From contig NZ_JAHWDQ010000004.1 in the NCBI RefSeq assembly GCF_019312595.1, forward strand, positions 186,001 through 250,000: DNA of 64,000 nucleotides. The letters are read 5' to 3'. A model generated the notes under the pieces. The model searched no databases and had not been told where the DNA came from. It was given only the letters and a program-made list of their open reading frames with translations. Within the stretch, counting starts at the first letter, position 1, and each line of letters begins with the position of its first letter. Positions 32,002 to 62,803 of this stretch are shown one piece after another. The position numbers and the translations under genes are program-made. The DNA comes from Zhongshania aquimaris (GTDB lineage Bacteria > Pseudomonadota > Gammaproteobacteria > Pseudomonadales > Spongiibacteraceae).

Positions 32002-32045
32002 ATAATACCCGTATAGTCACCCCAAAAATTCATCTAATCGTATGA
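32002..32045 (-). promoter_or_regulatory. Dyad operator plus -10 for the SDR at 31189
   Basis: The dyad TCATCTAATCGTATGA is at 32030-32045. On the minus strand, 22 bases after it, stands TATTAT (32007-32002), a good -10. The SDR ATG is 45 bases further. Confidence 0.65.
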
Positions 32046-32409
32046 TTTTTTTTCCTGTTCGGCGGCACGCTATTAATCGTTAACATTAAAAGCCGCAGAT
32101 ATACCGTAGGCTCAATGACCGATATCAAAAAAATGGAGCAGGCTCTTGATGCTTGGCATGAATTCACTTTTTCACAAGAATCGGTGCCTATATCACGGCC
32201 GTCAAGTTCAGACCAAAACAGCTATTAGTGACCAGCTGGATGTGAGCGCGGAATAGCATAAGGATACCCAATTGAAAACCTGAACGCAGAGAATTCATCA
32301 CAGGTAGCCAATATTTAAAACCGGAGTGGCATACACACGTTAACATAACGCCATGTCAAGCACTGGCACACTAGTTCTTAATAAATAACATCTTGCTACG
32401 AGCTTCACT

Positions 32410-32453
32410 TCATTCCTTCAGATGAAGTAACAGTGAATATAGGGTAGTAAGAT
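32410..32453 (+). promoter_or_regulatory. Dyad operator plus -10-like box for the SDR-Rieske-ferredoxin operon
   Basis: TCATTCCTTCAGATGA at 32410-32425 is flanked by CTT/AAG, extending the symmetry. TAAGAT (32448-32453) follows 22 bases later, and GATAAT (32451-32456) overlaps it. The operon start is at 32575. Confidence 0.6.
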
Positions 32454-32574
32454 AATACACAATAATGAACTATTAAGAATGAGCTCTAAAAATATAATGA
32501 ATGGCGAAACACCCGCTGCTTATATATTTGAGTGATATTAATTTTCATCACTTGGAAATAAAGGGAAAAATCTC

Positions 32575-33528
32575 ATGCAACTGAACAAAGCTAAAACACT
32601 ACGCTTTGATGGAGAAGTTGTTCTTGTGACTGGTGCAGGTCAAGGGCTCGGTCGCAGTTACGCTGAATTACTCGCCAGCCGCGGTGCTCGCGTAATAGTC
32701 AATGATCCCGGAGTAAGTTTTTGCGGAGCTAAAACTGATCAATCACCCGCTGATGATGTAGTTACCAACATCATCTCTGCCGGCGGATTGGCTGTTGCCA
32801 ATCATGATCGTGTCGATGAATCGCCAGAAAACATTGTAGCGCAAGCACTGGATGCCTATGGTCGCCTGGATATCGTTATCAATAACGCTGGAATAGCCGG
32901 TGGCGGGCATTTCCCTGATATTCCGTTATCTGAGTTTAATCAGGTGCTCAATGTCCACATTAACGGCACCTTGGGAGTTCTTCGTGCGGCATGGAAGCCA
33001 CTAGCATCATCCAATTGTGGCCGGGTGATCAATACGTCATCTGCTTCGATATTCGGATCTGTCGGAACGTCACCTTATGTTGGCTCTAAAGCATTTATTT
33101 TTGGGCTGACTCGATCGCTCGCCGAAGAGGCTCGATCTTCCGGTATCAGATTGAACACCATAATGCCTTCTGCCTATACGCGGTTAACGGCTATGCTACC
33201 TGACCCTAAAGTTTGTGACTATTTATGCCAACACTATTCACCTGAATCGGTTGCAGCTTTTGTCGTATGGCTTGCCCATAAAGACACCAGTATATCTGGC
33301 GAAACATTTGCAATTGGGGGAGGAGTCGCCTCCCGTGTACAAATGGCAATATCAAATAGTATGCAGGTTGACGACAACAGCGTGCCTGAATCATGGGTCG
33401 GGCAGGAGTGTGATTTACTTTCAAAGGATGCCGGTAAATTCCCCAAGAATATGTGGGATGTCATCCGCTCGGACGCTGATATTTTCGGTTGCGATTCTGC
33501 CACGGCTTTTTCTAACTTAAATCTATAA
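32575..33528 (+). CDS. Short-chain dehydrogenase/reductase, MFE-2 (hydroxyacyl-CoA dehydrogenase)-like
   Basis: A 317-residue SDR with TGAGQGLG at 19-26, NNAG at 103-106, Ser155/156, Tyr168 and Lys172 (YVGSK). The long insert after beta-2 (VNDPGVSFCGAKTDQSPADDVV) and the tail resemble the hydroxyacyl-CoA dehydrogenase domain of peroxisomal multifunctional enzyme 2. Such enzymes oxidise 3-hydroxyacyl-CoAs or steroid alcohols. AAGGGAA precedes the ATG. It leads a three-gene operon with a Rieske oxygenase (35 bp later) and its ferredoxin. Confidence 0.88.
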   Translation: MQLNKAKTLRFDGEVVLVTGAGQGLGRSYAELLASRGARVIVNDPGVSFCGAKTDQSPADDVVTNIISAGGLAVANHDRVDESPENIVAQALDAYGRLDIVINNAGIAGGGHFPDIPLSEFNQVLNVHINGTLGVLRAAWKPLASSNCGRVINTSSASIFGSVGTSPYVGSKAFIFGLTRSLAEEARSSGIRLNTIMPSAYTRLTAMLPDPKVCDYLCQHYSPESVAAFVVWLAHKDTSISGETFAIGGGVASRVQMAISNSMQVDDNSVPESWVGQECDLLSKDAGKFPKNMWDVIRSDADIFGCDSATAFSNLNL

Positions 33529-33563
33529 AAACAGAAACTGTACACTCTTAAAAGGTAAATCAA

Positions 33564-34532
33564 ATGAAACCAAGCCCTATGTCACTTCGCGCCCCCTCCA
33601 GGGAATTTCCTAAAGGGTGGTATTGTGTTGCAGACAGCAAGGAGGTCAAAGTTGAAAAACTCTTGCCGGTCTCATGGCTAGGGCGTGACTACGTGGTTTT
33701 TCGTGATACCCAAGGCCTTGCCAAAGTAGCCGACGCCTATTGTCCTCACTTAGGAGCACATCTGGCCTCTCATGACGGCTGCATCAAAGAGGGTCGGGTT
33801 ATCTGCCCTTTCCACCATTGGGGGTTTGATACCTCAACAGGTAAGTGTACAGATATCCCGTATGCCAAAGTGATTCCTCCAGTATCATTGACCTTCTATG
33901 AAGTTCGTGAAGTCAATGAGCAAATTGTAATTTGGTATCATCCCGAAGGTCTTGCACCCGACCGCGAACCATATCAAAGCGACCTGCTGAAGGAAAGGGA
34001 GTGGGTATTATTTGATAGCCGCTCATGGACAAGCTCTGCGCCATTCTGCGACATTTTGGAAAACCTGTTTGATACCGCCCATATACTAATGCTGCATCAT
34101 GCCCATGAAACGCCAAAGCTGGGTAACATAGAAGAGTTAGACTATGGATTAAAAGTCGACTACATAATGGATCCGGATAAATCCGATCAACCAATGAAAT
34201 CCCTCACCTGCCACATATCTGGCATTACGCTACTAGTGCAGCATTATGAGTTTGTGGGAACGGAGGCGCTTTTTGTCTTTTCGTTTACACCTATTGATCA
34301 CGAATATTTTGTGCAAAGAACTCACCTCTATTTACTTAATAATGTGTCACCTGAAGTGATGGAAAACATAGGCAAGGAATTTGTAGATCGTTTTGTAATG
34401 GAAGTCGATCAGGACATGGAGGTGCTTAATTTCAAGAAACATTTGACGAAACCGCGACTATGCGATGGCGATGGTCCAATACTGCGCTTTCGTCGTTATT
34501 CAAATCAGTTTCTTGAAAAAGAAGGCGTGTAG
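33564..34532 (+). CDS. Rieske oxygenase, KshA-like
   Basis: A 322-residue oxygenase. Rieske centre Cys60-x-His62 (YCPHLGAHL) and Cys81-x2-His84 (CPFHHWGF); mononuclear iron Asp170, His173 and His178 (NLFDTAHILMLHH). The N-terminal FPKGWYCVADSKEV and IPYAKVIPP segments resemble the oxygenase component of 3-ketosteroid 9-alpha-hydroxylase (KshA) and related terpenoid/steroid Rieske enzymes. The protein is somewhat shorter than KshA (about 380). Its 2Fe-2S ferredoxin starts five bases downstream, so the redox partner is linked. Hydroxylation of an alicyclic substrate is likely (inference). Confidence 0.9.
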   Translation: MKPSPMSLRAPSREFPKGWYCVADSKEVKVEKLLPVSWLGRDYVVFRDTQGLAKVADAYCPHLGAHLASHDGCIKEGRVICPFHHWGFDTSTGKCTDIPYAKVIPPVSLTFYEVREVNEQIVIWYHPEGLAPDREPYQSDLLKEREWVLFDSRSWTSSAPFCDILENLFDTAHILMLHHAHETPKLGNIEELDYGLKVDYIMDPDKSDQPMKSLTCHISGITLLVQHYEFVGTEALFVFSFTPIDHEYFVQRTHLYLLNNVSPEVMENIGKEFVDRFVMEVDQDMEVLNFKKHLTKPRLCDGDGPILRFRRYSNQFLEKEGV

Positions 34533-34537
34533 CAATA

Positions 34538-34867
34538 ATGAATACAGTAATCATCAATGTCGAAGATCGACACGGACGCATACGCAAGGTAGAAGCCTGC
34601 TGCGGAGACAATATGATGGAGGTACTTCGTGATCAAGGCTTTGGAGTTGAGGGGACTTGTGGCGGGGCGGTTTCGTGCGGCTCGTGCCATATATATGTTG
34701 ATCCCAGCCTGATGACTCAATTAACTCCGCAGATTGACGATGAGGCGGCCATGTTAGACGCAATTCAAACCGAGGTTACAGTAGATCCCACCTCGCGACT
34801 ATCTTGCCAGATAGTCGTTAGCGACTATATGAATGGAATGAGGATCAAGGTTGCACAAGAAATATGA
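34538..34867 (+). CDS. Adrenodoxin-type [2Fe-2S] ferredoxin
   Basis: A 109-residue ferredoxin with ligands Cys41, Cys47, Cys50 (CGGAVSCGSC) and Cys90 (RLSCQIV), the adrenodoxin/putidaredoxin pattern used by P450s and Rieske oxygenases. It is co-transcribed with the KshA-like oxygenase (gap of five bases). No dedicated reductase is next to it; the FprA-type reductase from 28274 could serve. Degenerate IS sequence begins 74 bases after its stop. Confidence 0.94.
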   Translation: MNTVIINVEDRHGRIRKVEACCGDNMMEVLRDQGFGVEGTCGGAVSCGSCHIYVDPSLMTQLTPQIDDEAAMLDAIQTEVTVDPTSRLSCQIVVSDYMNGMRIKVAQEI

Positions 34868-34940
34868 CTAGACGTGTCATCCTAGCCTAAACTGAAATAG
34901 CCTTAGTTACCTTTTGCGGTAACCATCCTCAGGGGGCGCT

Positions 34941-35123
34941 ATGAAAACGTCGAATTTTACATAAGCCAAGCTCATCAACATATTAGATGAAGGTAATTCT
35001 GAGATAAAAATTGAAAAGCTAAGCGGTGTGCACCGTATCAGTAACGACACCTAATTACATTGGAAACTCAGCTCCATGGCATCGAAGTATCGGACGCGCG
35101 GTACTTGCGAGATCCCGAGAACG
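34941..35123 (+). pseudogene. Remnant of IS3-family OrfA
   Basis: From ATG 34941 the frame reads MKTSNFT, stop, AKLINILDEG, with KLSGVHRISNDT further on. This is the typical start of IS3-family OrfA (MKKSRFTE.QIV.IL ... HGIS..T). After another stop and a shift it continues GIEVSDARYLRDPEND, the OrfA leucine-zipper lead-in. Several stops and a frameshift make it dead. End coordinate approximate. Confidence 0.7.
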
Positions 35124-35392
35124 ATGTACCGACAAAGGGCATCTGTGAAGCACCTCCACAAAAACACCTTACATAATTTCTACCATACATGCTTCCGCAA
35201 CAAACTCTAGGCGGATACCATCCTGATCAAGAAAAATCATGACGAGTAGATCGAGTATCACCACAATGAGGGAACTCATCAGGGAAAGGTGCTGCGGATA
35301 CCGCACCAATGGCAACGTTACTTGATGACAAAACGATTGGGGCAGAGATGAATTTAGCTCAGATCTAAACTGGCAGACACCGGTAAAAAACG
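35124..35392 (+). pseudogene. Remnant of an IS481-family transposase C-terminus
   Basis: In changing frames the sequence encodes GICE, then KNTLHNFYHTCFRNKL, then IEYHHNEGTHQGK, then APMATLLDD and NLAQI followed by a stop. These match the C-terminal part of IS481-family DDE transposases in order (NGICERFHKT, EFYQ..FRKK, YYNNERTHQGKM, TPM.TL, LNQI). At least three frameshifts or stops are present. It adjoins the IS3 remnant directly, so one element inserted into, or was fused with, the other. Confidence 0.72.
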
Positions 35393-35456
35393 GGTAACTG
35401 TCAGATCAAGTCTGAGCTACTACAGGTAACTGTCAGTTCAAGTCTGAGCTACTGCA
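35393..35456. repeat. 32-bp tandem repeat, IS-end-like
   Basis: Two copies of a 32-bp unit starting GGTAACTGTCAG and ending GAGCTACTRCA lie at 35393-35424 and 35425-35456 with two differences. A partial third copy (GAGCTACTACA) follows to 35470. The position just after the IS481-type remnant suggests duplicated terminal sequences of that element. Confidence 0.7.
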
Positions 35457-35516
35457 TCGGAGCTACTACAAATTAACAGCAACCCGAATTTTCCACTCGC
35501 GCATCCGCAACGAAAT

Positions 35517-36383
35517 CTAGGTAACCATCACATCCGATGGCTGTGCTGGGCTGCCCATCATTGGAGCGTAAGACGTGGGTATTTTTCCATCTACATCCAA
35601 CACATTTAACTCTTCACCCAACTCTGCAGTCACATAGGTTTTGCCGGTTTTTTCCATAATTTGTCCGGCTTTTAACAATGCGATAATAATACGACCGGGA
35701 TATTCTGGGCTTTCTATGCCAGGTTTCAGGTACTCGTACGTTGCTGGATCCTTATCCATAGCAGTAGTCGTACGCTCAGTTTTCACTATCCCCAGCCATA
35801 GCGAAACGCAAGCTACGTTATATTCCTTTAAATCCTTCGCCATATCATGCGCCATCTTATCCACACCGGCTTTACTAACGCCATAAACGGGGGTGTGGAT
35901 ATAACAGCGTGAACCGAAGGAAGAGATGTTCACAATCAAGCCGCTCTTGGCCTTCACCATCATCTTTGCCGCGAAGACAGAAGATATATAATGTGCTCGC
36001 AGCCCGACATCAATCATATCGTCCCAATAACTCGTTTTCTTTTCCCAAAATGGTGCATATTCCATAAGGTCATCTGGCACGACGAAGACATTATTTACCA
36101 AAATATCTAACTTTCCATGGTCAGTTTCAATTTTGTCAAAAACTGCCTGAACCTGCTCGTCACTGCGATGATCACAGGCCATCGCAACACCTTTTCCGCC
36201 ACGAGCATTGATCTCTTCTACTGTTTTAAAAATAGTGCCAGGTAAACTACTCTGACCATCCGACACACTGCGACCAGTGATATAGATAGTGGCACCAGCA
36301 TCTGCCAGGGCTAACGCAATTCCCTTTCCGACACCACGGCTAGCGCCCGTTACTAAGGCCACAGTATTCTTATCGACGATCAT
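35517..36383 (-). CDS. Short-chain dehydrogenase/reductase, DHRS1-like
   Basis: A 288-residue SDR with TGASRGVG at 12-19, NNV at 97-99, Ser154/155, Tyr167 and Lys171 (YGVSK). The extra segment after the NNV motif (DDLMEYAPFWEKKTSYWDDM) and the WLGIVKTERT region are characteristic of the DHRS1 group, whose members reduce steroids and xenobiotics. It ends the SnoaL-SDR-SDR run on the minus strand, 59 bases after the preceding SDR. An IS481-type remnant lies immediately past its stop. Confidence 0.88.
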   Translation of the reverse strand: MIVDKNTVALVTGASRGVGKGIALALADAGATIYITGRSVSDGQSSLPGTIFKTVEEINARGGKGVAMACDHRSDEQVQAVFDKIETDHGKLDILVNNVFVVPDDLMEYAPFWEKKTSYWDDMIDVGLRAHYISSVFAAKMMVKAKSGLIVNISSFGSRCYIHTPVYGVSKAGVDKMAHDMAKDLKEYNVACVSLWLGIVKTERTTTAMDKDPATYEYLKPGIESPEYPGRIIIALLKAGQIMEKTGKTYVTAELGEELNVLDVDGKIPTSYAPMMGSPAQPSDVMVT

Positions 36384-38720: not shown

Positions 38721-38764
38721 TCATCTAATTAGGTGATTCACCCGTATCCAAGCAGTCTTATAAT
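38721..38764 (+). promoter_or_regulatory. Best copy of the 16-bp dyad, with a perfect -10
   Basis: TCATCTAATTAGGTGA (38721-38736) pairs at 7 of 8 positions. On the plus strand a perfect TATAAT (38759-38764) begins 22 bases after it, giving a promoter toward the MFS gene. On the minus strand TATAGG stands 25 bases away, toward the SDR. The dyad thus appears to serve both directions. Confidence 0.72.
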
Positions 38765-38956: not shown

Positions 38957-40189
38957 ATGACCAGTGTTTTGAAGAATAACGACTGCCAGCCAAAGCTCAA
39001 CTACCTTTTAGCCTTAGTTTGCATGCTAGGCCCTGCCTTAGTTGCCCTAGTACCCATGGCGGTTGCACCAGCCTTACCAGCGATGGCTTTATACTTTCAA
39101 GACGTTGACAGCAGCGACCTATTTGCCCAAATGGTGATGACCACCCCCGCAATAATGATTATTGTCTTCGCTCCCATATCGGGAATACTTAGCGAACGAT
39201 ATGGAGTACGACTAAACTTACTTACTGGACTATTTCTGTATATTGTATTCGGATTCAGCGGATACTTTATTTCTGACGCCACATTACTGATCATTAGTAG
39301 ATTGTTACTCGGCTTAGCTGGCGGCGCAGTTTTGACAAATTCGCTAATTCTAATCGGAAGCTCATTTTCCGGCCATCATCGAGAACTACTGCTCGGCTTA
39401 GCCACCTCGTTGGCATCTATATTTGCAGCGCTTGCTCTGATTTTCGGCGGAAACATGGTGGATACCCTCGGATGGCGATCATCTTTCATGCTTTATCTCA
39501 TAGCTGCGCCAGTAATGATCATTGCTTGGTTTTGCGTAAAAAGCACACCACCAATAGCTAAAGCTAAAACTGCGAAAAAGTCGAATGCCAACTCGTATAG
39601 CCACAAGGCACTAATACCACTATGGCCGTTCTATGCCGTACTTATTCTATTCACGATTGGAATGTTCTCGCCATCTATCCAAGGCCCCTTTTCGCTAGAA
39701 ATGAAAGGCATACATAGCGCATCGGAAAAGGGGCTAATCCTTAGCCTAACCTCAATATGCGCAGTGTTCTCCTCTGCGCTGTTCGGCTATTTCAGACGTT
39801 ACTTTAGTTCATATACAATCTTGCTAATTGACTTATTCACCATGGCAAGCGGCTTCATCCTGCTGTCAATAGCCACCGACACATATTCACTCGGTTTAGC
39901 TTGCGCGATTATCGGAATTGGCGCCGGCTTGTCCGAGCCGTCAATCGCATCAATCCTCCTCGATAGAACGAAGATTCACATCCATGGATTAGCTATGGGC
40001 CTGGTCGTTAGTGCACTCAATGCCGGGCAGTTCATAAACCCGCTAATCATGAACTTCTTCAAGAGTATGTCTAATATTGACTCAGCATTCATGATGCTAG
40101 GGTTGATATTCTCACTAGTCCTATTCATCGCCTATATACGACGCCCCACCCCAAATAATAGGCCTGATCCATTAAGTAAACTGGCGTGA
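38957..40189 (+). CDS. MFS transporter
   Basis: A 410-residue inner-membrane protein with about 12 hydrophobic helices. The MFS motif between helices 2 and 3 is GILSERYGVRLNL, and a basic central loop (AKAKTAKKSNANSYS) divides the two halves. GAGG stands nine bases before the ATG. It resembles drug/organic-acid antiporters of the DHA group. Located between SDR and SnoaL genes behind a dyad-controlled promoter, it probably imports or exports a substrate or intermediate of the pathway; direction cannot be told. Confidence 0.9.
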   Translation: MTSVLKNNDCQPKLNYLLALVCMLGPALVALVPMAVAPALPAMALYFQDVDSSDLFAQMVMTTPAIMIIVFAPISGILSERYGVRLNLLTGLFLYIVFGFSGYFISDATLLIISRLLLGLAGGAVLTNSLILIGSSFSGHHRELLLGLATSLASIFAALALIFGGNMVDTLGWRSSFMLYLIAAPVMIIAWFCVKSTPPIAKAKTAKKSNANSYSHKALIPLWPFYAVLILFTIGMFSPSIQGPFSLEMKGIHSASEKGLILSLTSICAVFSSALFGYFRRYFSSYTILLIDLFTMASGFILLSIATDTYSLGLACAIIGIGAGLSEPSIASILLDRTKIHIHGLAMGLVVSALNAGQFINPLIMNFFKSMSNIDSAFMMLGLIFSLVLFIAYIRRPTPNNRPDPLSKLA

Positions 40190-40899: not shown

Positions 40900-42042
40900 A
40901 TGAAAGACATCTCCGTATCTGAATACAGTAAATTGCTAATCGACCTCTATGACGGTCATTACGGCGACGATCCCTACTGTAATTTCTTATCCGGACTACG
41001 TGAAATTCTTGAACTTAATTTTGCCTCGATTACCTTGCGCGAACCAATTGAGACCAACGGCGGCTTACTATTTATATCATGCGACTCCCTGCAGAAAACC
41101 TACGCTGATTCAAGCGACAACCCATACACAGCCAGATACTACACATCAAATTTGATGACCAATTTATCGATGGGAAAAGTGACTACACTTGATGAGTGTG
41201 TGACTTGTGATAGCTTCGAGACCTCTGATATATACAAAATGTGCATGGAACCCATAAATATTTACCACATGGCCGGTCTAGATTTAAGAAACTACAATGG
41301 CGAAAGGTTTTCAGTTAGAGTCTGTCGACCCAAAAGTAGCGATAACTTCAATCAGGAAGAGAAGGATTTTTTCGAGCTGATTGGCTCGCACATCCAAAGA
41401 GCTATATCCAAAGCCATGCAATTGATTCAAATCGAAACTGAAAGAAAGCTATTTGCAAATACCGTAACCGGGCAGTCTATCGGCACTTTCATTCTCGATG
41501 AGCAGGGAAAGCTGTTACATAGAAACCAGGCCGCCGAGGAGATGATTTCTGACAGTGACGGACTGGAAATAGAAAACCACCAAATTAAACTGGATGACCC
41601 CGATTCAAACAGCAAACTTTACGGCTATATCAATAAAATTATAACTGCCACGAAAGAGGGAAGCATTCCCGAAGTTTACGCGATGCCGACCCAACGTAGC
41701 TCGGGAAATACTGATTACGAAATACTCATAAAGCCCTTAGCCATTGACAAGGTAGTAGCATCGACCAAAACCCCGCATATCATTGTATTTATAAGCGCCC
41801 CAGAAAAAAGAACGCAACTAGACACCAAAGTACTGATGTCCCTGTTTCCATTTACTGAGAAAGAAGCAGAATTAACCAAGCACCTCATTATAGGAAGCAA
41901 CCTTACTGAAAGCGCCGAAAAACTGCACATCTCCAAGAACACCGCAAGAACCCACCTGCGATCAATATTCCTAAAAACCGGCGTCACTCAGCAATCCATG
42001 CTTGTTAGCCTAATACTTAAAAGCGTGGCCATGCTTAACTAA
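40900..42042 (+). CDS. LuxR-family regulator with PAS-like sensor
   Basis: A 380-residue regulator. The N-terminal half has a helical/GAF-like segment, then a PAS-like domain (GTFILDEQGKLLHRNQAAEEMI). The C-terminal LuxR/GerE HTH (about 318-375) reads FTEKEAELTKHLIIGSNLTESAEKLHISKNTARTHLRSIFLKTG. It is a solo LuxR-type activator, not an AHL-type by its N-terminus. The neighbouring convergent gene encodes another regulator of exactly the same length and domain order. Likely role: activate the dyad-bearing promoters of this region in response to a substrate. Confidence 0.9.
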   Translation: MKDISVSEYSKLLIDLYDGHYGDDPYCNFLSGLREILELNFASITLREPIETNGGLLFISCDSLQKTYADSSDNPYTARYYTSNLMTNLSMGKVTTLDECVTCDSFETSDIYKMCMEPINIYHMAGLDLRNYNGERFSVRVCRPKSSDNFNQEEKDFFELIGSHIQRAISKAMQLIQIETERKLFANTVTGQSIGTFILDEQGKLLHRNQAAEEMISDSDGLEIENHQIKLDDPDSNSKLYGYINKIITATKEGSIPEVYAMPTQRSSGNTDYEILIKPLAIDKVVASTKTPHIIVFISAPEKRTQLDTKVLMSLFPFTEKEAELTKHLIIGSNLTESAEKLHISKNTARTHLRSIFLKTGVTQQSMLVSLILKSVAMLN

Positions 42043-43393: not shown

Positions 43394-43437
43394 TCACCCT
43401 TTTAGTTGAAGATAATACATCTCCATATTGCGATAGT
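43394..43437 (+). promoter_or_regulatory. Dyad operator plus -10-like box for the SnoaL gene
   Basis: TCACCCTTTTAGTTGA (43394-43409) reads TCAACTAAAAGGGTGA on the other strand, 12 of 16 matching the best dyad. GATAGT (43432-43437) follows 22 bases later; the gene starts 40 bases on. Confidence 0.5.
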
Positions 43438-54353: not shown

Positions 54354-54425
54354 ATGTTAGATGAAGGATCAACCCCATTCATCATTCTATTAGGTGAAGA
54401 ATTAAAATATTTTCCGCGTGATACT
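54354..54425. promoter_or_regulatory. Bidirectional dyad operator between receptor and sulfotransferase
   Basis: TCATTCTATTAGGTGA (54382-54397) matches the 38721 dyad at 13 of 16 positions. Twenty-two bases away on the minus side is TAACAT (54359-54354), toward the receptor. Twenty-two bases away on the plus side is GATACT (54420-54425), toward the sulfotransferase. Confidence 0.6.
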
Positions 54426-54530: not shown

Positions 54531-55718
54531 ATGCCTGATACTAGAACCGAAATCTCGTCGCACTCAAATATTAGCACCGAGAAACTACTTGAGTCTGCAT
54601 GTAAAGAATGTGGACTAACTGACTTTGGAAACGAACGCTTTTTAGCACCATTGAATGTTCTTGTGGATTCAATGAATAGTGAAGCATGCCTTTCTCCTGC
54701 AGGTATCGCCAGCCAATCCGCCAGATTAGTAAACTCGCTAATGAATCGCTTGCGCAAAGTCGAGTTCTTAAAGCGCTACCCCGAAGTACTTGATGAAGAA
54801 ATTGATGTAGGCGCCGTTATTGTTGGGTTGCCGCGAACCGGAAGCACCATGCTGCAGAGGCTCCTGGCATCATCACCCAATTTGACAGCAACGCGATGGT
54901 GGGAAACGATTTTTCCTATGCCAGTCAGCGATGACAAGGCAACTGACAGCGGCACGCGTATTCAAATGGCCGAGGATCTCGTAAAAACTATTCTCGAAGA
55001 TGCCAAAGACTTTGACTCTATCCACCCATTAAATGCAACGGCCTATGATGAGGAGCTAACTTTAATAGAGCACTCATTTATGAGTAATATGCCGGAGTCC
55101 ATGATGTATGTACCCACATACGGAAAGTGGCTATTAGAGGCCGACCAATCTCACGCGTACAATGAGCTTATCGAATATTTAAAGATTTTGCAGTGGCAAA
55201 AACCGGCTAGACGCAAGCAAAAATGGGTTCTAAAAAGCCCTCATCACCTTACCGCTCTGCCCACTGTCCTAAAGGCATTCCCGAACGCCTTAATAATTAT
55301 GACACATAGAAATATCACGGATGTCCTGCCCTCCTGGTACAGTATGGTTGGCTCCCTGACTATGGCTAACACAACGGCGGATAAGCTCACTCAGGCACAG
55401 GCAAAACACTGGACACAACGCCTGGACCTAAACTTACAATCATTCTTACAAATGAGAGATTCTGCTGACGATCGATTCTTAGACTTACACTACCTGGATC
55501 TTTTAAAGAACCCCGTTGATTCATGCTTAAAGATATTTGATAAAATTGGGTGGCCTATCGAAGAGGGTGATTTGTCAGCCTTTAAAGATCATCTATCTCA
55601 GAACACGCGAGATAACCGACCAAAACACGTTTATGATATTTCTGATTATGATATGACATTAGATACCATAAGAGAGCAGTTTTCATACTATGAGAATTTC
55701 ATAGGGCCCGCCAATTAA
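54531..55718 (+). CDS. Sulfotransferase-family protein
   Basis: A 395-residue protein with the 5'-phosphosulfate loop GLPRTGST at 99-106, followed by MLQRLLASSPNLTATRWWE as in the Sulfotransfer_3 family, and the KSPHHLTALPTVLKAFPNALIIMTHRN block for the 3'-phosphate. AGAGGA precedes the ATG. Such enzymes move sulfate from PAPS to alcohols, and members occur in steroid- and terpenoid-degradation clusters, where their role is unclear; some may not be true sulfotransferases. A strong 14-bp hairpin follows the stop. The divergent TonB receptor shares its control region. Confidence 0.87.
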   Translation: MPDTRTEISSHSNISTEKLLESACKECGLTDFGNERFLAPLNVLVDSMNSEACLSPAGIASQSARLVNSLMNRLRKVEFLKRYPEVLDEEIDVGAVIVGLPRTGSTMLQRLLASSPNLTATRWWETIFPMPVSDDKATDSGTRIQMAEDLVKTILEDAKDFDSIHPLNATAYDEELTLIEHSFMSNMPESMMYVPTYGKWLLEADQSHAYNELIEYLKILQWQKPARRKQKWVLKSPHHLTALPTVLKAFPNALIIMTHRNITDVLPSWYSMVGSLTMANTTADKLTQAQAKHWTQRLDLNLQSFLQMRDSADDRFLDLHYLDLLKNPVDSCLKIFDKIGWPIEEGDLSAFKDHLSQNTRDNRPKHVYDISDYDMTLDTIREQFSYYENFIGPAN

Positions 55719-55887: not shown

Positions 55888-57588
55888 TCACTTTGCGCTC
55901 ACCGCATCCAGCGCGGCTAAATACCCAAAAGTCATCGCAGGACCAAGTGTTGAGCCAGCCCCCGGATACGACGGCCCCATTACCGAAGCCGCATTATTCC
56001 CGATAGCATAGAGACCCTCAATCTGGCTGCCGTTTTGATCAAGGACTCGCCCTGTGTCATCAGTCGCCAACCCGCCTTTTGTGCCAATATCACCAGGATA
56101 AACAGGCATTGCATAGAATGGACCACTCTCTATAGCGGCAAGGTTTGGATTAGGAGTGACATTCTGGTCACCATAATAGCGATCATAAGCGGCTCCACCG
56201 CGATCAAAATCCTTATCTACCCCGTCGTGTGCGTATCCATTAAATTTTTCAATGGTTTTTTCCAGGGCATCACTGGACATATTAGTTAACTTCGCCAGCC
56301 CCTTGATGCTAGACGATTTCTTAATCATCGACCTAACTTCTTTGCTGTGAAGCCAATCGGGTATCACTGGCATCAATGGTCCCATTGGGTATTTTTTCCG
56401 GAATGTAGCATCAAAAATCAACCACGACGGCGTCGTTCGGCAATCCGGCCTATCGGCGTCAATCATTGCCTTGGAGGCAACATCATAACTTCGAGCTTCG
56501 TTCATATACCGCTCACCACCTTGGCTGACAATTATGCAGCCAGGCAAGGCTCTTTCATAAAACAAGGGACGACCGCGGCTTTCGCTCGGTACTTTCACTG
56601 TTGGCGCCCACCAAGCGTGCTCCATTAAGTCAGTCGCAGCACCGATTGCGACGCCTGCCTGTATCGCATCGCCAGTATTATTAAGCTGCCCACCAGACCA
56701 CTCACAGCGAGTATCGCCTGGTAAATATTTGTCTCTCATCTTCTGGTTGTGCTCAAACCCGCCAGCGCCGAGAATAACGCCTTTGTTTGCCTTAATTGCC
56801 GTTAGAACCCCGTCCTTAAGCACCAAAGCGCCAACGACCCTGCCGCTGTCGTCTCTTATAAGCTCCTTTAATGCGCTATTAAGCCATAGCGTTCCACCAA
56901 AGTGATTAAGAGCGATCTTTAGATGGCCGGCAATGGCATTGCCAAAAACCATAAACCGACTTCTCTTCGACTTAACTCGCTGCGGCAAGTCTGAGTAGTA
57001 TCGCCACAAGATCTTTATCATGGTCTGCACCCAACCAGGCCCACGGGTAACCATTGGCGCAGCCTCCATGGTTGTCCAGGGTATATACCCAAACAAAGCA
57101 GTACTTGGATGACCAGGCAGCAGTGAATCAAACTCTTCTTTTTCTAAAAGCGACGCATGCAATGTATTTGTTTCATGAGTTCTATACCCGTGTTTTCCAC
57201 CCGGCAATTCTGCGTGGTAATCGGTATATGGAATGGCATTAAAGCGCAGCGCAGTAACACCCTCTATATACTTCGCCATAACTCGGGCATTGACGGTGTA
57301 AGATTTAATTTTACTATCAGAGACAGTCCCGCTGGTGAGCGACTTTATATACAAAAATGCTTCTTCGGGGGAATCTTCTTGCCCCTGCGCTATTGCAGAA
57401 TGGCTTGCAGGAATCCATATTCCGCCACCGCAAGTGGCAGATGTTCCACCCCACTTACTCCCCTTTTCCACAATTAAGGTACTTGCACTTTTTTCTGACG
57501 CTGTTACGGCAGCAACTAATGAACCAGCACCACTACCAACAACCAGCACGTCGACTTCATGATCCCATTTCTGAACTGTATTACTCAT
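55888..57588 (-). CDS. KstD-like FAD dehydrogenase (3-ketosteroid delta1-dehydrogenase family)
   Basis: A 566-residue flavoprotein of the succinate dehydrogenase/KstD group. FAD loop GSGAG at 18-22, IVEKGSKWGGTSATCGGGIWIP, and the C-terminal GPSYPGAGSTLGPAMTFGY. In the latter, Tyr541 and Gly545 correspond to the Tyr/Gly pair that polarises the 3-keto group in KstD. The family abstracts hydrogens at C1/C2 of cyclic 3-ketones. AAGG precedes the ATG. Last gene of the SDR-ThDP-ADH-DUF1214-KstD run on the minus strand, 11 bases after the DUF1214 gene. Action on a non-steroid cyclic ketone is equally possible. Confidence 0.9.
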   Translation of the reverse strand: MSNTVQKWDHEVDVLVVGSGAGSLVAAVTASEKSASTLIVEKGSKWGGTSATCGGGIWIPASHSAIAQGQEDSPEEAFLYIKSLTSGTVSDSKIKSYTVNARVMAKYIEGVTALRFNAIPYTDYHAELPGGKHGYRTHETNTLHASLLEKEEFDSLLPGHPSTALFGYIPWTTMEAAPMVTRGPGWVQTMIKILWRYYSDLPQRVKSKRSRFMVFGNAIAGHLKIALNHFGGTLWLNSALKELIRDDSGRVVGALVLKDGVLTAIKANKGVILGAGGFEHNQKMRDKYLPGDTRCEWSGGQLNNTGDAIQAGVAIGAATDLMEHAWWAPTVKVPSESRGRPLFYERALPGCIIVSQGGERYMNEARSYDVASKAMIDADRPDCRTTPSWLIFDATFRKKYPMGPLMPVIPDWLHSKEVRSMIKKSSSIKGLAKLTNMSSDALEKTIEKFNGYAHDGVDKDFDRGGAAYDRYYGDQNVTPNPNLAAIESGPFYAMPVYPGDIGTKGGLATDDTGRVLDQNGSQIEGLYAIGNNAASVMGPSYPGAGSTLGPAMTFGYLAALDAVSAK

Positions 57589-57599
57589 CGTATTGCGCC

Positions 57600-58697
57600 T
57601 TAGTTGATCTTTTTAACTGTGCATTGTGGAATAGGGTGCGTTTCTGCGCCGACCCAACGAAGTAGCAAAAATCCCTGATGATGACCCGCTGTCGACAAGT
57701 AATTATCAGAACCTAGCTCTTCGTGCGAAACCGTAATTGTTACCGTTTCGTTATCGTTAAGCACCGCGTTATGCTTGTTTATACAAACTGGAAGATATCG
57801 GTAATCCAGGGATTCCATCCACCAATTATTGATCTGAATATTCCAGTGCTGGCAGTCTGGTACCGGTACCGTTATTTCTAGCAACTCTTTCTCACCAAGA
57901 TGCCAGAAGCCATGGATGTAAAATATATTGGGATCGCCCCCAGCTCGAATGAACATCTCCTGCCCCCAATCACACATTTGATTAGGACGAGACATAAATT
58001 TTGTAGCCCAAGACGCGAACAGATTAGAGCTTCCCACAACAAATTCGGCTGCAGACATTAACTTCTTAGCTAAAACATCAGGATCAAGGGGAGGCGGTAC
58101 ACTTGGCCCGGCGCTTATTCTCTCAATGCTGATACTAGCTGGCGTTTCGTTATCTCTATCGAGAAATGTCTGCCTAAGCTGAATGACACTGGAGCCGTCC
58201 TCCAGCGGAAGCCAGGCCTTACCATTTTCTGGCTTGTGTTGACTTGCAACTATCTCGAAATTTCCACTTTCATCAGCAAGAAATTCGTGACCAGACAGTT
58301 CACCAGTAGACGCCATCGTCCCATCAATAGAATAGTTATTTGCCTTTGAGCCAACACTTAAATAGGTAACAGTCCCGACATTGCCATGAATCCGATATTC
58401 TCTATCTCCCGCTATTGTTGCAGACAGATATAAATTATCAGGATTATCGCCACCTAATTTTGCTGTGGCGTGACTAGGCAACACAAAACAAGGGAAATCC
58501 GGATCACCACCCTCTAAATATATCTCCAGGCCCAGCCTGACAAGTCGACTTAAATAGCGAGTACCCTCTGCCTGATCAAACGCTGTTTTAGGTGAGCTAC
58601 TGCAATCCAGGGTTGCTTGTGCATCCTTCAAGCGCTCGCAAAATGATACCCACAAACTTCTATCATTTGCGTGGGGATTTATTGTTGTATCTTGCAT
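57600..58697 (-). CDS. DUF1214-domain protein
   Basis: A 365-residue soluble protein. The segment DNPDNLYLSATIAGDREYRIHGNVGTVTYLSVGS and the C-terminal DCQHWNIQINNWWMESLDYRY match DUF1214-type proteins as I remember them. No signal peptide. The family has no firm function but recurs next to KstD-like, SDR and acyl-CoA genes in steroid- and alicyclic-degrading bacteria. Here it lies between the zinc alcohol dehydrogenase (37 bp upstream) and the KstD-like gene (11 bp downstream), consistent with co-transcription. Confidence 0.85.
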   Translation of the reverse strand: MQDTTINPHANDRSLWVSFCERLKDAQATLDCSSSPKTAFDQAEGTRYLSRLVRLGLEIYLEGGDPDFPCFVLPSHATAKLGGDNPDNLYLSATIAGDREYRIHGNVGTVTYLSVGSKANNYSIDGTMASTGELSGHEFLADESGNFEIVASQHKPENGKAWLPLEDGSSVIQLRQTFLDRDNETPASISIERISAGPSVPPPLDPDVLAKKLMSAAEFVVGSSNLFASWATKFMSRPNQMCDWGQEMFIRAGGDPNIFYIHGFWHLGEKELLEITVPVPDCQHWNIQINNWWMESLDYRYLPVCINKHNAVLNDNETVTITVSHEELGSDNYLSTAGHHQGFLLLRWVGAETHPIPQCTVKKIN

Positions 58698-58734
58698 TAA
58701 TCGCTCCCGAAAATTTCCAATAGCACAGCCACTT

Positions 58735-59760
58735 CTACGCCTCAGTAGGCAACACCATGACCTTGATAGCTTCAGGACTCATCTGCGCAGAAAACGCCTT
58801 GTCTATGTCTGCAAGAGGATACTGATGCGTTATCAAATCATTGCGATTTACTTTTCCAGACCTCATCATCTCAAGCGCGATCACAAGGTCTTCACTCGCA
58901 TAGCCCTGAGAACCAATAATGCTAATTTGCTTATCAATGACCGGCATAAAGTTAATCGCAAGATCACTTTCATACGCGCCAAAGCAAACTATGCGACCTA
59001 TCGCGTCACCCTTTACCATATAAAGCGCTGTTTGTAGTGGCGATTCCGACTTCATACTTTTTATATAACCAGCACAATCGATCACCACATCTACTGACGG
59101 TGGATTGGAAGGCGGGAACGATACCGGCGTCGTTCCACAAATTTCTCTAACTTGCTCAACAACGTCGCCGTCTAAGGGGTTAACACAATAAACACCCAGC
59201 TCTTTTGCCTTCTTCAGCCGTACCGCTGAAATATCTATAGCGACAATTTTTCCAATCGCCTTATCTTGTGAAAGAAGCGCTTGAATGACACTTAGGCCAA
59301 TAATACCTACACCGTATACAACGACATTTTCATTGTCTTTCAATTGCGCTTTACGAACCATTTGCAATGCATCTGCCATAGGCTCCGTTGTTGCCGCCTC
59401 CTGAAAGCTAACGCCGTCTGGTATCTTCACTAGCTGGAACGGGTTGCACGGAACAGGTACGAATTCCGCAAAGCCCCCCATACCTACTCCCACGACTCGC
59501 TCGCCCTCAGCAAAGCCTTCAACGTCTGCCCCGACCTTGCGAATAACCCCGCTGAACTCGTGACCCGGTATTTCCTTTCCTGATTTCGAAACCCTATTAA
59601 GCACGCCCCGGTGACTATTGTGGCGATACATATGCAAATCAGAACCGCAAATACCACAGGCTCTAACCTCTATTAAAACTTCATTCGCCTCAATCTCAGG
59701 AACTTCAATTCCATCTTCCGCGACAAGGTCATAAGGATCTTTGAATACACCGGCCTTCAT
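58735..59760 (-). CDS. Zinc-type alcohol dehydrogenase (MDR family)
   Basis: A 341-residue medium-chain dehydrogenase. Catalytic zinc ligands are Cys38 (CGICGSD) and His67 with Glu68 (PGHEFSG); the NAD loop is GVGIIG near 150. The four-Cys structural-zinc lobe normally following residue 90 is missing; the sequence there is GVGMGGFAEFVPVP. It may oxidise a ring alcohol or a 2,3-diol with NAD. Part of the minus-strand operon led by the SDR at 61631, 69 bp after the ThDP enzyme. Confidence 0.9.
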   Translation of the reverse strand: MKAGVFKDPYDLVAEDGIEVPEIEANEVLIEVRACGICGSDLHMYRHNSHRGVLNRVSKSGKEIPGHEFSGVIRKVGADVEGFAEGERVVGVGMGGFAEFVPVPCNPFQLVKIPDGVSFQEAATTEPMADALQMVRKAQLKDNENVVVYGVGIIGLSVIQALLSQDKAIGKIVAIDISAVRLKKAKELGVYCVNPLDGDVVEQVREICGTTPVSFPPSNPPSVDVVIDCAGYIKSMKSESPLQTALYMVKGDAIGRIVCFGAYESDLAINFMPVIDKQISIIGSQGYASEDLVIALEMMRSGKVNRNDLITHQYPLADIDKAFSAQMSPEAIKVMVLPTEA

Positions 59761-59829
59761 ATGGTTACCTCTTATTAAATTATTAATTCACTAGTTGCTC
59801 GAAACGCGACACATACCAAGGCGGAGTAA

Positions 59830-61551
59830 TTAAATATAAGCAACTTTGTCTGCATGCCATTTGTATATAAGATCAGCCTCTGGCGCCTCATAGGCCGAAA
59901 TTCGTCTATCCATTACGATCTGTACAATTGCCGGCTTACCGGAAGCGAACGCCCGATCCATTGCAGGCTGAATTTCATCTGTTGTCTGACAAAACTCTCC
60001 ATGCCCTCCCATTTCCATAGCCAGGCGGTCCATTCTCACGAATTCATTATCTACTTCAAAGGTCTTACCAAAGCGATATTCGTAGTAAGGAACCTCTAGT
60101 GCCCAACCTTGATCATAAGCAACAACAATCACTACCGGCAGCTGATAACGAACTGCCGTTTCAAACTCCATCATGTAGAAACCTATAGCGCCGTCTCCCG
60201 TTACCAGGCAAACCCGCTTACCAGGCTCTGCAAGCTGAGCCCCAATAGCGTAAGGAAGTCCAACACCAAGCATGCCCATCTTCAACGTAGCGAGAAAATT
60301 ACTATGCTTGTTATTTAAATAGCGTTGTTGCCACAGAAAAATGGATCCGCCATCACTAACGATAATGGCGTCGTCTGGAATCGATTTTTGCGCCTCCAGT
60401 ATTAGGCGGCCCGGATGAACCGGCGTTATATCTTTAGCGGCCTCAATGTAACCTTGGAAAATATCTCTTCTCTGCTCTTGCCATACAGCCAATTTCTCAC
60501 TGCATCCTCTTACTTGCCTAAGTTTAAGCTCTGATATTAACTCTGGAATGATGTCTTCTATGTTTCCGACCAAGGCAATATCAATGAGTCGATTTCTACC
60601 GGCTACCTGCGGATCCTTTTCAACCTGAATCCACGTTTGATCACTGCCGAAGAAATCGCCAAATCCTTCTTGCTCAGAGAAATACAGATTATCTCCAAAC
60701 ATCAATTTTTCGCCTATTGATGAGCCGACAACCAATATGACATCGGCTTGCTGCGTGGCCTCCAAGCCAGGCCCAAACCCAAAATCCAGAACTTGAGAAT
60801 GGGTATCGGGAAAGGTTCCTCTACCACCATAGGTTCTAACAACCGGGCATTTGAGAATCTCTGCTAACTGCTGAAGTAACTCATGGGTTTTTGAAATACG
60901 AACACCGGCACCAGGCATCAGTACCGGTAGCTCTGCACTTTCTAAAATGTCAGCGACCCGCTTTATGTCCTCAGATGGCGGCATTATTCTAGCTGGCCGA
61001 TAAAGATTTTTTGCCGGTAACGCCTCAAACTCATATTCTTCACGCAACATATCGAACGGCAAGCCAAGATATACTGGGCCTGGACGACCGTAACGCATTT
61101 GCCTGAACGCCTCATAAAATAGCTCATCCACTTGCTCAGGATGCTCAAGAATAGCGGCGAATTTCGTTACCGGCTTTACCATATCTACCAAGTTAGGGCA
61201 CTGAAACTTAGGCGACCTGACAGAGCTTCTAGCCATGAGGCCCCGCTCCGAGCCCAAATACAATACCGGCAGGCCCTCCGCATCGGAGTGAACAACCGCA
61301 GGCAAAAGGTTGCTGGCGCCCGGTCCGCAGTTACCACCGGTAACCGCAATATTTCCAGTACTTTGCGCATATGACTCAGCCATATAAGCACAGGCTGTTT
61401 CATGGTGGCCCGCAATAATACGACCTTCACGCTCTACAAAACGATTGTGGATATCGCCAAATGTAACCTCTGGAAGTGTAAAAAGTTTATCTACACCCTC
61501 GTGGATTAGTAAATCAGCTATTCGACTACCAATAGTTTGCGACACTTTCAT
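59830..61551 (-). CDS. ThDP-dependent enzyme (acetolactate synthase/cyclohexanedione hydrolase-like)
   Basis: A 573-residue three-domain ThDP enzyme. Glu51 (GHHETACAYMAESYAQ) is the cofactor-activating acid. The ThDP/Mg motif begins GDG at 452-454, but where most members have Asn-Asn about 27 residues later, this protein has Tyr479-Asp480 (VVAYDQGW), so Asp would replace the usual Mg-ligand Asn. The family includes acetolactate synthase, benzoylformate decarboxylase, 2-hydroxyacyl-CoA lyase and cyclohexane-1,2-dione hydrolase, which opens a ring. No regulatory subunit is nearby, so it is not a biosynthetic ALS. C-C cleavage of a 2-hydroxy-ketone or dione is the best guess. Confidence 0.88.
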   Translation of the reverse strand: MKVSQTIGSRIADLLIHEGVDKLFTLPEVTFGDIHNRFVEREGRIIAGHHETACAYMAESYAQSTGNIAVTGGNCGPGASNLLPAVVHSDAEGLPVLYLGSERGLMARSSVRSPKFQCPNLVDMVKPVTKFAAILEHPEQVDELFYEAFRQMRYGRPGPVYLGLPFDMLREEYEFEALPAKNLYRPARIMPPSEDIKRVADILESAELPVLMPGAGVRISKTHELLQQLAEILKCPVVRTYGGRGTFPDTHSQVLDFGFGPGLEATQQADVILVVGSSIGEKLMFGDNLYFSEQEGFGDFFGSDQTWIQVEKDPQVAGRNRLIDIALVGNIEDIIPELISELKLRQVRGCSEKLAVWQEQRRDIFQGYIEAAKDITPVHPGRLILEAQKSIPDDAIIVSDGGSIFLWQQRYLNNKHSNFLATLKMGMLGVGLPYAIGAQLAEPGKRVCLVTGDGAIGFYMMEFETAVRYQLPVVIVVAYDQGWALEVPYYEYRFGKTFEVDNEFVRMDRLAMEMGGHGEFCQTTDEIQPAMDRAFASGKPAIVQIVMDRRISAYEAPEADLIYKWHADKVAYI

Positions 61552-61630
61552 AATTAGAGTTCCCAGTATTTATTGTATGTAATGTGCTATTTAAAATTCT
61601 TACCACGCACGCGATCAGCCGTGCAATTTA

Positions 61631-62422
61631 CTAGTGAGGAATAAACCCGCCACCATTAACGTCAAGCGTTGCACCGGTAACCGCGCTGGCATAGTCAGAC
61701 GCAAAGAACAGGACAGACTTCCCGCACTCCTCATCACTCGGGATACGCCCAAGCGGTATATTCCTGGTAACCTCACCGATCACTTCTTCGAGCGCCAAAC
61801 TTCGCTCCTTGGCCGAGGCGATCATGTAATTCTCAACACTTGGACCCCACATCCAGCCCATATAAACAGAATTTACGCGAATATTGTCTGCACCCAGCTC
61901 CATTGCCAGATGCGATGAAGCGCATGACAGGGCAGCCTTTGTCGAAGCGTATCCACCATTCGAAAACATCGGCGTGCGCGCCGCCATGGTATTCACCATA
62001 ACAATACTGCCACCGCCTCCGCGCCTCATATGAGGAACCACCTCTTGGGTTAAATTCAATGTACCGAAGAAATTGACGTCCATCGGCTTTCGCCAATCGT
62101 TTAAATTTGCGCTATCGATTGTTGAAAATGTACCGGGGTCATATGCACTATTGATAAGTACATCGATACGTCCGAATTTTTGATAGGCGCGGTCAGCCAA
62201 TGACCTGCATGACTCTCTATCCGCTATATCGGTGGCCACGCAAAGTATTCTCTCACCATCTACACCCTGAGCAACCAAGTCCGATTTCAACACATCGAGC
62301 TTTTCTTGTGTTCTTGATGCGAGAACAACATTTGCGCCTTCAACTAAACTCAAGGTAACCAACTTACAGCCTAAGCCAGGACCAACCCCGGATATCACAA
62401 CTGTTTTATTCTTGAGAAGCAT
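61631..62422 (-). CDS. Short-chain dehydrogenase/reductase
   Basis: A 263-residue SDR with the unusual loop SGVGPGLG at 11-18, Arg37 after beta-2 (ASRTQEKL), which favours NADP, NSA instead of NAG at 91-93, the segment VNTMAART (Thr in place of the usual Ser), Tyr158 and Lys162 (YASTK), and VTGATLDVNGG near the end. It opens the operon that runs through the ThDP, ADH, DUF1214 and KstD genes. The 16-bp dyad at 62524-62539 lies 102 bases upstream. Substrate unknown. Confidence 0.89.
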   Translation of the reverse strand: MLLKNKTVVISGVGPGLGCKLVTLSLVEGANVVLASRTQEKLDVLKSDLVAQGVDGERILCVATDIADRESCRSLADRAYQKFGRIDVLINSAYDPGTFSTIDSANLNDWRKPMDVNFFGTLNLTQEVVPHMRRGGGGSIVMVNTMAARTPMFSNGGYASTKAALSCASSHLAMELGADNIRVNSVYMGWMWGPSVENYMIASAKERSLALEEVIGEVTRNIPLGRIPSDEECGKSVLFFASDYASAVTGATLDVNGGGFIPH

Positions 62423-62803
62423 AGCGGCATAATCCCCACATAATTATTATCGATAGCACGCCCTCTTACCGAGGCGCCCAAAAAGTATGCTCACAACCAT
62501 ATCAAGCCGAAGATGTTAATAACTCATTCGATGAGATGAAGAATTGAGAAAATGATCTACCAAAAGCCCTCTTGACGAGGCGAAAAGTACATCGAGGAGC
62601 AGACCAGCTGTTTATGTGCGGCGCGATCAAAGGTACAAACCGATGTAAAAATGCGCGAAGTTATTGTGTACAATGCCCCTGTAGCGCTTACCATCGCGTC
62701 ATCACAGCGAATAGCGGCGAAAACCTCACCTTAATGAATGAATCTTCTTAAAAAGCATCGAGCTAGAATCGATGAAAAGTATATAAGAAGGCTACTTCAC
62801 ACA
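62423..62803. other. Divergent promoter interval
   Basis: 381 bases without a gene, between the SDR operon (minus) and the acyl-CoA ligase (plus). It contains the dyad at 62524-62539 with a minus-strand -10. I see no clear promoter pair for the ligase. Confidence 0.45.
62496..62539 (-). promoter_or_regulatory. Dyad operator plus -10-like box for the SDR-ThDP-KstD operon
   Basis: TCATTCGATGAGATGA (62524-62539) has perfect outer arms (TCAT/ATGA). On the minus strand TATGGT (62501-62496) stands 22 bases after it. The SDR ATG is 74 bases further. Confidence 0.6.

Follow-up and report, generated by a model that had tools for sequence, protein, structure and literature searches.

The dyads and their promoter spacing

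The window analyzed here is a 64,000-nucleotide stretch of the Zhongshania aquimaris genome (contig NZ_JAHWDQ010000004.1, positions 186,001 to 250,000, or C7:186001-250000 in our numbering; genome 4.25 Mb, 12 contigs). It encodes two LuxR-type regulators, LuxR1 and LuxR2, within a gene cluster that looks made for the breakdown of steroid-like compounds, and its control regions hold a recurring 16-bp dyad, TCAT-N8-RTGA (Table 1). The original prediction named six such dyads, and we found all six where it had placed them and outside the 45 hand-listed open reading frames (ORFs). When exact matches to TCAT-N8-RTGA were counted strand-wise, the window contained 13, compared with 4.97 (SD 2.40) in shuffled sequence, and none of 100 shuffles reached 13. 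Three of these matches are coding (50708, 50842, and 55440); the last, inside the sulfotransferase gene, was not claimed as a site despite a TAGACT at a gap of 24 nt.

Each of the seven -10-like hexamers quoted for these dyads begins 22 nt from its dyad (7 of the 12 arms). At this gap, a match to TATAAT in at least four of six positions occurs on 7 of 12 arms, while 0 to 4 arms scored at any other gap between 15 and 31 nt. With the stricter form TANNNT at a gap of 21 to 24 nt, 5 of the 12 arms scored, against a shuffle mean of 1.36, and 10 of 2000 shuffles were as high. With 22 nt between a 16-bp dyad and the -10, the center of the dyad falls at about -42.5, in the place of the -35 element. 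The arm of the 38721 dyad that faces the gene at 38657 has no -10 at 22 nt.

A palindromic matrix built from the six window sites ranked these sites first to fifth and seventh in the window. The sixth rank went to an intergenic site outside the training set, dyad 7, which the original prediction had overlooked. The acyl-CoA synthetase unit that it faces was invisible to that reading because the ORF runs off the window end.

Table 1. Dyads, regulators, and predicted regulon genes (window coordinates, except in the last row). SDR, short-chain dehydrogenase/reductase; MFS, major facilitator superfamily; ThDP, thiamine diphosphate; ADH, alcohol dehydrogenase; HTH, helix-turn-helix
Feature	Position	Strand	Remarks
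Dyad 1, TCATCTAATCGTATGA	32030-32045	-	-10 TATTAT 32002-32007; faces SDR 31189-31956 (-)
Dyad 2, TCATTCCTTCAGATGA	32410-32425	+	-10 TAAGAT 32448-32453; faces SDR-Rieske-ferredoxin genes 32575-34867
Dyad 3, TCATCTAATTAGGTGA	38721-38736	+	-10 TATAAT 38759-38764; faces MFS 38957-40189
Dyad 4, degenerate, TCACCCTTTTAGTTGA	43394-43409	+	Between LuxR2 (-) and 43462 (+); GATAGT 43432-43437 faces 43462
Dyad 5, TCATTCTATTAGGTGA	54382-54397	.	Divergent: TAACAT 54354-54359 (-) to TonB receptor; GATACT 54420-54425 (+) to sulfotransferase
Dyad 6, TCATTCGATGAGATGA	62524-62539	-	-10 TATGGT 62496-62501; faces SDR-ThDP-ADH-(365 aa)-KstD-like genes 62422-55888
Dyad 7, TCACCTTAATGAATGA	62726-62741	+	-10 TAGAAT 62764-62769, gap 22; faces acyl-CoA synthetase operon
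LuxR1, paralogue, less likely binder	40900-42042	+	25% identical to LuxR2
LuxR2, predicted binder	42141-43283	-	C-terminal GerE HTH, PAS-like middle part (low-confidence model)
SDR, predicted regulon member	31189-31956	-	Faces dyad 1
SDR, KshA-type Rieske oxygenase, 2Fe-2S ferredoxin; predicted regulon operon	32575-34867	+	
MFS transporter, predicted regulon member	38957-40189	+	
161-aa protein, predicted regulon member	43462-43947	+	No Pfam match at 0.001
SDR, SnoaL_4 protein (matches BaiE 7alpha-dehydratase), TonB receptor	44229-47790	+	
TonB-dependent receptor, predicted regulon member	51992-54283	-	
Sulfotransferase, predicted regulon member	54531-55718	+	
KstD-like flavoprotein, 365-aa protein, Zn-ADH, ThDP enzyme, SDR; predicted regulon operon	55888-62422	-	
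Acyl-CoA synthetase	62738-64000	+	ORF 62738-64342, likely start 62804; runs past window
Distant dyads behind a LuxR gene, TANNNT at gap 22	L086 10278, L122 10278, L125 10278; L089 10192; L078 2403		First three: Vibrio comitans, V. superstes, V. breoganii

Conservation with LuxR2 and clustering in genomes

We examined whether the dyads cluster in the genome with the pattern TCAYNYNWWNRNRTGA, an 18-bit form of the dyad that was widened after the sites of relatives had been seen, and with the reversed pattern as control. This pattern yielded 21 sites in the 4.25-Mb genome and the reversed pattern 5. Eight of the 21 fall within C7:218030-256678 (∼39 kb), where ∼0.12 would be expected from the density elsewhere, and seven of these eight are intergenic. 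Equal density inside genes and away from this region had been named beforehand as a possible refutation, and the scan thus came out in favor of the regulon. Five of the eight clustered sites are the original prediction's own and hence not independent; the others are 62726, the coding site 55440, and 256663, which lies 6.7 kb beyond the window, 144 bp ahead of an MFS gene. The regulon would accordingly be larger than first stated, taking in the acyl-CoA synthetase operon from 62738 and this MFS gene past the window end. Of the 13 sites elsewhere in the genome, 10 fall inside called ORFs, and L142 makes an eleventh within an open frame of 661 codons. TANNNT at a gap of 21 to 24 nt accompanied 7 of the 8 island sites (one being the coding 55440) versus 2 of the 13 elsewhere. 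An intergenic site, L035, lies upstream of a LuxR paralogue and has TATAAT at a gap of 21 on the arm that points away from the paralogue.

Other forms of the pattern were less useful. The narrower TCAYYTNATNNGRTGA matched only 38721 genome-wide. TCAYYYNWWNRRRTGA matched exactly in 11 places, six of them in the window and one of those coding, and with one mismatch it gave 96 matches, the same number as its reversed control. In 17 genomes of the same genus, whose best LuxR2 matches were 1e-39 or weaker, the summed counts for the dyad pattern were 130 sites and 97 for the reversed control.

To obtain loci independent of the window, contigs were scanned with LuxR2 and its 33% relative, and 80 loci were kept. 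Eight of these are near LuxR2 relatives (L055-L062; 31-51% identity) and come from Pseudomaricurvus alcaniphilus, P. alkylphenolicus, and six contigs of metagenome-assembled genomes (MAGs); the 72 others mostly matched through the HTH alone. L060 was dropped as a near-duplicate of L059, leaving seven non-redundant relatives. The matrix was trained solely on the six window sites (45% GC), and the relatives' loci have a GC content of 52 to 68%. Dyads of 16 to 20 bits were found in all seven. Matches of at least 16 bits numbered 12 in the 120 kb of these loci (10.0 per 100 kb) versus 9 in the 1262 kb of the 72 others (0.71). The same geometry was seen in the relatives: for their 19 matches of at least 13 bits, TANNNT occurred at a gap of 22 to 24 nt on 15 of 38 arms (null 1.07) and at exactly 22 nt on 5 of 38 (null 0.32), with none of 2000 shuffles as high in either case. 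These counts are unselected; a first table for gaps of 22 to 24 nt comprised 16 hand-picked matches of the 19 and omitted L055 12306, L056 10610, and L058 3198. L180, a clade member from genome G687 that was fetched later, has six dyads of at least 13.7 bits, with TANNNT at 22 to 24 nt on 3 of 12 arms (null 0.45, 12 of 2000 shuffles) and at 21 to 24 nt on 5 of 12 (null 0.60, 0 of 2000), the range having been widened to 21 after L180 was seen. Across the 27 promoters with TANNNT at 21 to 24 nt, the gap was 22 in 13, 23 in 9, 21 in 3, and 24 in 2. The fixed spacing of 22 nt that had been proposed is exact within the window and varies from 21 to 24 nt in relatives, so that the rule is 22 to 23 nt rather than exactly 22.

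These results bear on two other explanations. The first is that palindromes arising by chance in AT-rich intergenic DNA were picked out by eye. Consistent with this, the loose motif (TCAT-N8-RTGA with one mismatch) is not enriched in the window (130 matches vs 110.6, 10 of 100 shuffles as high), and two weaker candidates, 34975 and 51907, dropped to 8.2 bits and 7.4 bits when scored with the combined matrix; both also lack TANNNT at 21 to 24 nt and were dropped. However, the held-out matrix and spacing tests and the genome clustering speak against chance, which we find hardly credible. The second is that the dyad is a repressor operator over the -35 position. A 16-bp palindrome there would suit a repressor too, and the window has two TetR-type genes (29613-30293 and 20780-21403). 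On the other hand, a search of the 27 promoters at spacers of 16 to 18 found a best TTGACA match of three of six or fewer in 25, no better than random, and promoters without a -35 are those expected of activator dependence. Moreover, neither the TetR-type protein 29613 nor the AsnC protein 47829 has a BLASTP match at 1e-10 in ten loci (eight of LuxR2, one of G049, and one of the own genome). We infer activation rather than repression and regard a repressor operator as very unlikely.

In L055, L056, L059, and L062, a dyad lies 108 to 186 bp upstream of the LuxR2 homologue, as it does here (43394 vs 43283), and the flanking sequence varies among loci while the dyad persists. The 161-aa protein 43462 has homologues (34-39%) in L059, L060, L061, and L062; in L059 and L062 (34-35%) the gene is divergent from LuxR2 with the dyad in between, and in L061 (39%) it is just downstream of two dyads. 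Further BLASTP counterparts in several relatives' loci are those of the SDR 61631-62422, the MFS gene 70822 (past the window), the SDR-SDR-old yellow enzyme (OYE) genes from 64383, and the Zn-ADH. L055 and L056 have a single dyad between the divergent MFS and SDR genes, while here the two are apart with a dyad each; the best matches of MFS 70822 and SDR 61631 thus keep a dyad although the gene order has changed. In L062 a dyad precedes the MFS counterpart by 78 bp; in L057 the dyad falls inside the called ORF, which exceeds the matched part by ∼130 codons. ORF calls in these GC-rich loci were scripted and are over-long in places, and some dyads called intra-ORF (L057, L061) are probably upstream of the true starts.

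In the genomes of six relatives, the pattern has 55 sites in all, 21 of them within 25 kb of LuxR2, where 0.5 would be expected (5/9, 2/3, 3/5, 2/5, 4/11, and 5/22 per genome). For five of these six genomes, the same loci had supplied sites from which the pattern was shaped; this was not so for G687 (5/9). Dyads, spacing, and clustering are shown computationally, and so is conservation of the dyad with LuxR2 across three families (f1, f9, and f219) besides Pseudomaricurvus. In a class-level search for LuxR2 at 1e-35, the own genome alone matched among 369, and 150 plasmid records matched LuxR2, with 24 to 27% identity among the 20 matches listed. Two further observations concern individual loci. 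In G687, a pattern site at C10:158471, outside the main cluster, lies ∼56 bp past the 3′ side of a second LuxR match (C10:158542-159681, -). L059 (CAMAXE010000001.1, 64% GC) is titled ‘Klebsiella pneumoniae MAG’, which looks mislabelled; its LuxR2-type cluster is common with uncultured Gammaproteobacteria.

LuxR2 and LuxR1 as candidate readers of the dyad

One of the two LuxR-type regulators encoded in the cluster very probably binds at the dyad. LuxR2 matched PF00196 (GerE) at 45.2 bits, above the cut-off of 23.5, while LuxR1 scored 21.8 bits, just below it. Pfam gave no autoinducer-binding domain, the feature of the N-acyl homoserine lactone-binding LuxR proteins of quorum sensing, and LuxR2 had no Pfam PAS match at 0.001. 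A structural model of low confidence (pLDDT 56.2) and its Foldseek matches (VqmA and EL222, both among the top ones, and PYP) suggest a PAS-like fold at about residues 191 to 299, with ∼190 residues ahead of it as a further N-terminal part. In a tree of 34 LuxR proteins, LuxR2 and eight relatives form a clade (99/99) with LuxR1 elsewhere, and the loci of all nine contain dyads.

The comparative evidence favors LuxR2 over LuxR1 as the binder because the loci of LuxR2 relatives carry dyads, because sites cluster at LuxR2, and because the single LuxR1-clade locus examined that lacks LuxR2, in genome G030 (no LuxR2-level match), has no dyad of at least 13 bits within 1.5 kb of the LuxR1-clade gene (6 pattern sites vs 5 reversed in that genome). 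From this we infer that LuxR2 binds the dyad. Likewise supported is the idea that one of the two LuxR-type proteins controls the units as a single regulon, since held-out loci of LuxR2 relatives carry both dyad and spacing and the sites cluster at LuxR2. The alternative is that LuxR1, another LuxR paralogue, or both LuxR proteins bind the dyad. LuxR1 is encoded within the cluster; in L055 its orthologue (50%) immediately follows an SDR gene that has a dyad upstream, and in L056 a second LuxR has a dyad of its own 59 bp upstream. A strong dyad in G049 adjoins a LuxR protein 33% identical to LuxR1. In contrast, most flank sets outside the LuxR2 clade have no dyad: among 53 flank sets of LuxR genes, five have a match of at least 13 bits, one of which is the LuxR2-clade L003 (several sets hold the same gene twice), and outside the clade the count is 4 of 52, two of these being the same G049 site. 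The window has no dyad between 40789 and LuxR1, and in L057 to L062 the best match of LuxR1 is the LuxR2 homologue (one match per locus, some loci short). We consider it improbable, though less so than a repressor, that LuxR1 or another paralogue is the reader.

Several observations count against LuxR2 as the reader, or as the only one. The G049 dyad is perfect (19.8 bits), and the LuxR proteins next to it do not belong to the LuxR2 clade; a LuxR paralogue on contig C6 of G000 (23%) has a dyad with TATAAT at a gap of 21 facing a divergent gene. Because of these two, the site may also be read by other LuxR proteins. LuxR2 is present in the fetched loci by construction, as retrieval used LuxR2 homology, and the HTH letters common to eight aligned proteins had been part of the search pattern (the recognition helix of G687 is VSVNTVKTHLRGIYEK). 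The site nearest LuxR2, 43394, is weak (11.1 bits, combined matrix) and has no -10 at 22 nt on the arm facing LuxR2. Autoregulation is not indicated, since the -10-like box at this site faces the catabolic side and not the regulator. Lastly, the 72 control loci contain 18 matches of at least 13 bits, with TANNNT at exactly 22 nt on 7 of 36 arms (null 0.86, 0 of 2000 shuffles), and seven control-locus matches of at least 13 bits lie within 300 bp of the fetching LuxR gene, all on its 3′ side. The control-locus dyads weaken the claim that LuxR2 is the sole reader. By the same token, they make the enrichment figures given earlier conservative.

The density in the 3′ flanks is 7 in 42 kb versus 9 in the remaining 1062 kb, with 0.36 expected, in a pattern that was found post hoc. 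Three of the seven belong to three Vibrio species and, being homologous, count as one event; the Kapaibacterium MAG L078 contributes two, and a Flavobacteriales MAG (L089) and Acuticoccus (L063) one each. Hairpins just behind a gene could be terminators, for which a -10 at a gap of 22 nt, present at five of the seven, would be unexpected. What these loci have in common may be the recognition helix, since the control loci were selected through the peptide VSINTVKT or a longer LuxR2 stretch. A tentative and rather doubtful extension is that LuxR proteins with the helix VS[IV]NTVKTH share the operator code TCAYYY-N4-RRRTGA with class II spacing of 22 to 23 nt far beyond the LuxR2 clade. Separately, a distant LuxR (23%) of Pseudomonas sp. 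RIT-PI-q adjoins a giant ORF (L064 2630-11188), and the upstream dyad of the latter (11257), TCATCCGTTTGAATGA, has TACAGT at a gap of 22.

A predicted catabolic regulon and comparable systems

We think it highly probable, on comparative sequence evidence, that the dyad serves as operator for LuxR2, a putative PAS-LuxR-type (TeiR-like) protein that would act as class II activator of a local steroid or bile-acid-like catabolic regulon. An operator centered near -42.5 over the -35 region is the class II activator arrangement, and LuxR/TraR-type class II activators have their dyad at this place. The predicted promoters have an operator near -42 and a -10 but no -35. A LuxR2 dimer would bind the operator (about TCAYYYRWWYRRRTGA) centered ∼42.5 bp upstream of the transcription start, overlap the -35 region, and activate promoters that have a recognizable -10 and no -35. 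Transcription is predicted to begin near 31995, 32460, 38771, 43444, 54347, 54432, 62489, and 62776. A single dyad could serve two divergent promoters. The presumed signal is a steroid- or bile-acid-like substrate or intermediate, which the N-terminal/PAS part would sense.

The regulon would form a catabolic island with sites over ∼39 kb, comprising SDRs, a KshA-type Rieske oxygenase, a KstD-like dehydrogenase, a BaiE-like SnoaL protein, a BaiCD-like ene-reductase, an acyl-CoA synthetase, a ThDP enzyme, MFS proteins, and TonB transporters. Of the units originally listed, the SDR, Rieske, MFS, TonB receptor, sulfotransferase, and SDR-ThDP-KstD units were retained, while the ‘SnoaL’ unit was corrected: the gene at 43462 is not SnoaL, and the SnoaL protein is encoded at 45016-45522. 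The genes at 44229-47790 possibly belong to the same unit as 43462. Beyond the window, the acyl-CoA synthetase gene is followed by genes for two SDRs, a BaiCD-like OYE, a SnoaL protein, another SDR, and an esterase. After the esterase (L053, C7:250001-262000) come an MFS gene and, behind it, transhydrogenase genes together with one for an SBF-family (bile acid symporter-type) protein. Two near-identical copies of ∼29 bases (GGTAACTGTCAGWTCAAGTCTGAGCTACT) are found at about 35393-35452, in the gap 34867-35517, and the AsnC/Lrp-type ORF at 47829-48746 has two HTH and two ligand-binding stretches.

A steroid- or bile-acid-like compound appears the likeliest substrate. The Rieske protein is closest to 3-ketosteroid 9alpha-hydroxylase; for ten proteins, none of the listed equivalog matches reached its cut-off. 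Similarity to the bai genes (BaiE, BaiCD, BaiB, and BaiG) is seen in the SnoaL_4 protein 45016, which matches BaiE structures, in the OYE-type flavoenzyme, whose best NCBIfam match is BaiCD (401.8 bits vs a cut-off of 825), and in the presence of a CoA ligase, SDRs, and an MFS protein. The second SnoaL protein (L053:4100-4546) had no PDB match. Unlike in the bai system, KshA- and KstD-type genes here point to oxidative breakdown.

Among known regulators, LuxR2 is likened to TeiR/TesR through gene context alone, a LuxR-type regulator among predicted steroid genes. TeiR/TesR of Comamonas testosteroni is described as a LuxR-type positive regulator of steroid catabolic genes (PMC6895838, PMC6678751) and TeiR as a membrane protein with kinase activity (PMC6678751). 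One account reports tesR-like genes in C. testosteroni only (PMC6895838), at odds with the statement that TeiR-like genes occur in the cluster of P. stutzeri Chol1 (PMC8399759). TeiR-like genes in a cluster notwithstanding, that review calls the regulatory mechanisms of bile-acid degraders in Proteobacteria largely unknown (PMC8399759). The literature searches made here yielded no operator for TeiR. The PAS-LuxR proteins of Streptomyces (PimM type) combine PAS with a LuxR HTH and have a 16-bp palindromic operator at the -35 region, CTVGGGAWWTCCCBAG (PMC9774167), which fits the dyad here in length, symmetry, and place but not in sequence. The PimM type belongs to actinomycete antibiotic clusters. 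LuxR2 also differs in having ∼190 residues before its PAS-like part. VqmA and EL222, which are PAS-LuxR HTH structures, share 12 to 15% identity with the LuxR2 model (TM by query ∼0.2). From the LuxR/TraR type, LuxR2 differs both in its dyad and in having no Pfam autoinducer-binding domain. A search of open-licence literature, in which the dyad letters themselves were not searched, found no paper giving this dyad among those listed. The observed dyads and spacing are real and well supported; the system is one of a known kind with a new operator sequence, whose regulator is named by comparative evidence.

The operator and its spacing rule would name the regulator, predict transcription start sites, and serve as a search tool for regulon members, and the operator may be a part for steroid biosensors. 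If the shared code of helix and operator holds true, the targets of many uncharacterized LuxR regulators, TeiR-like ones included, would become readable from genomes.

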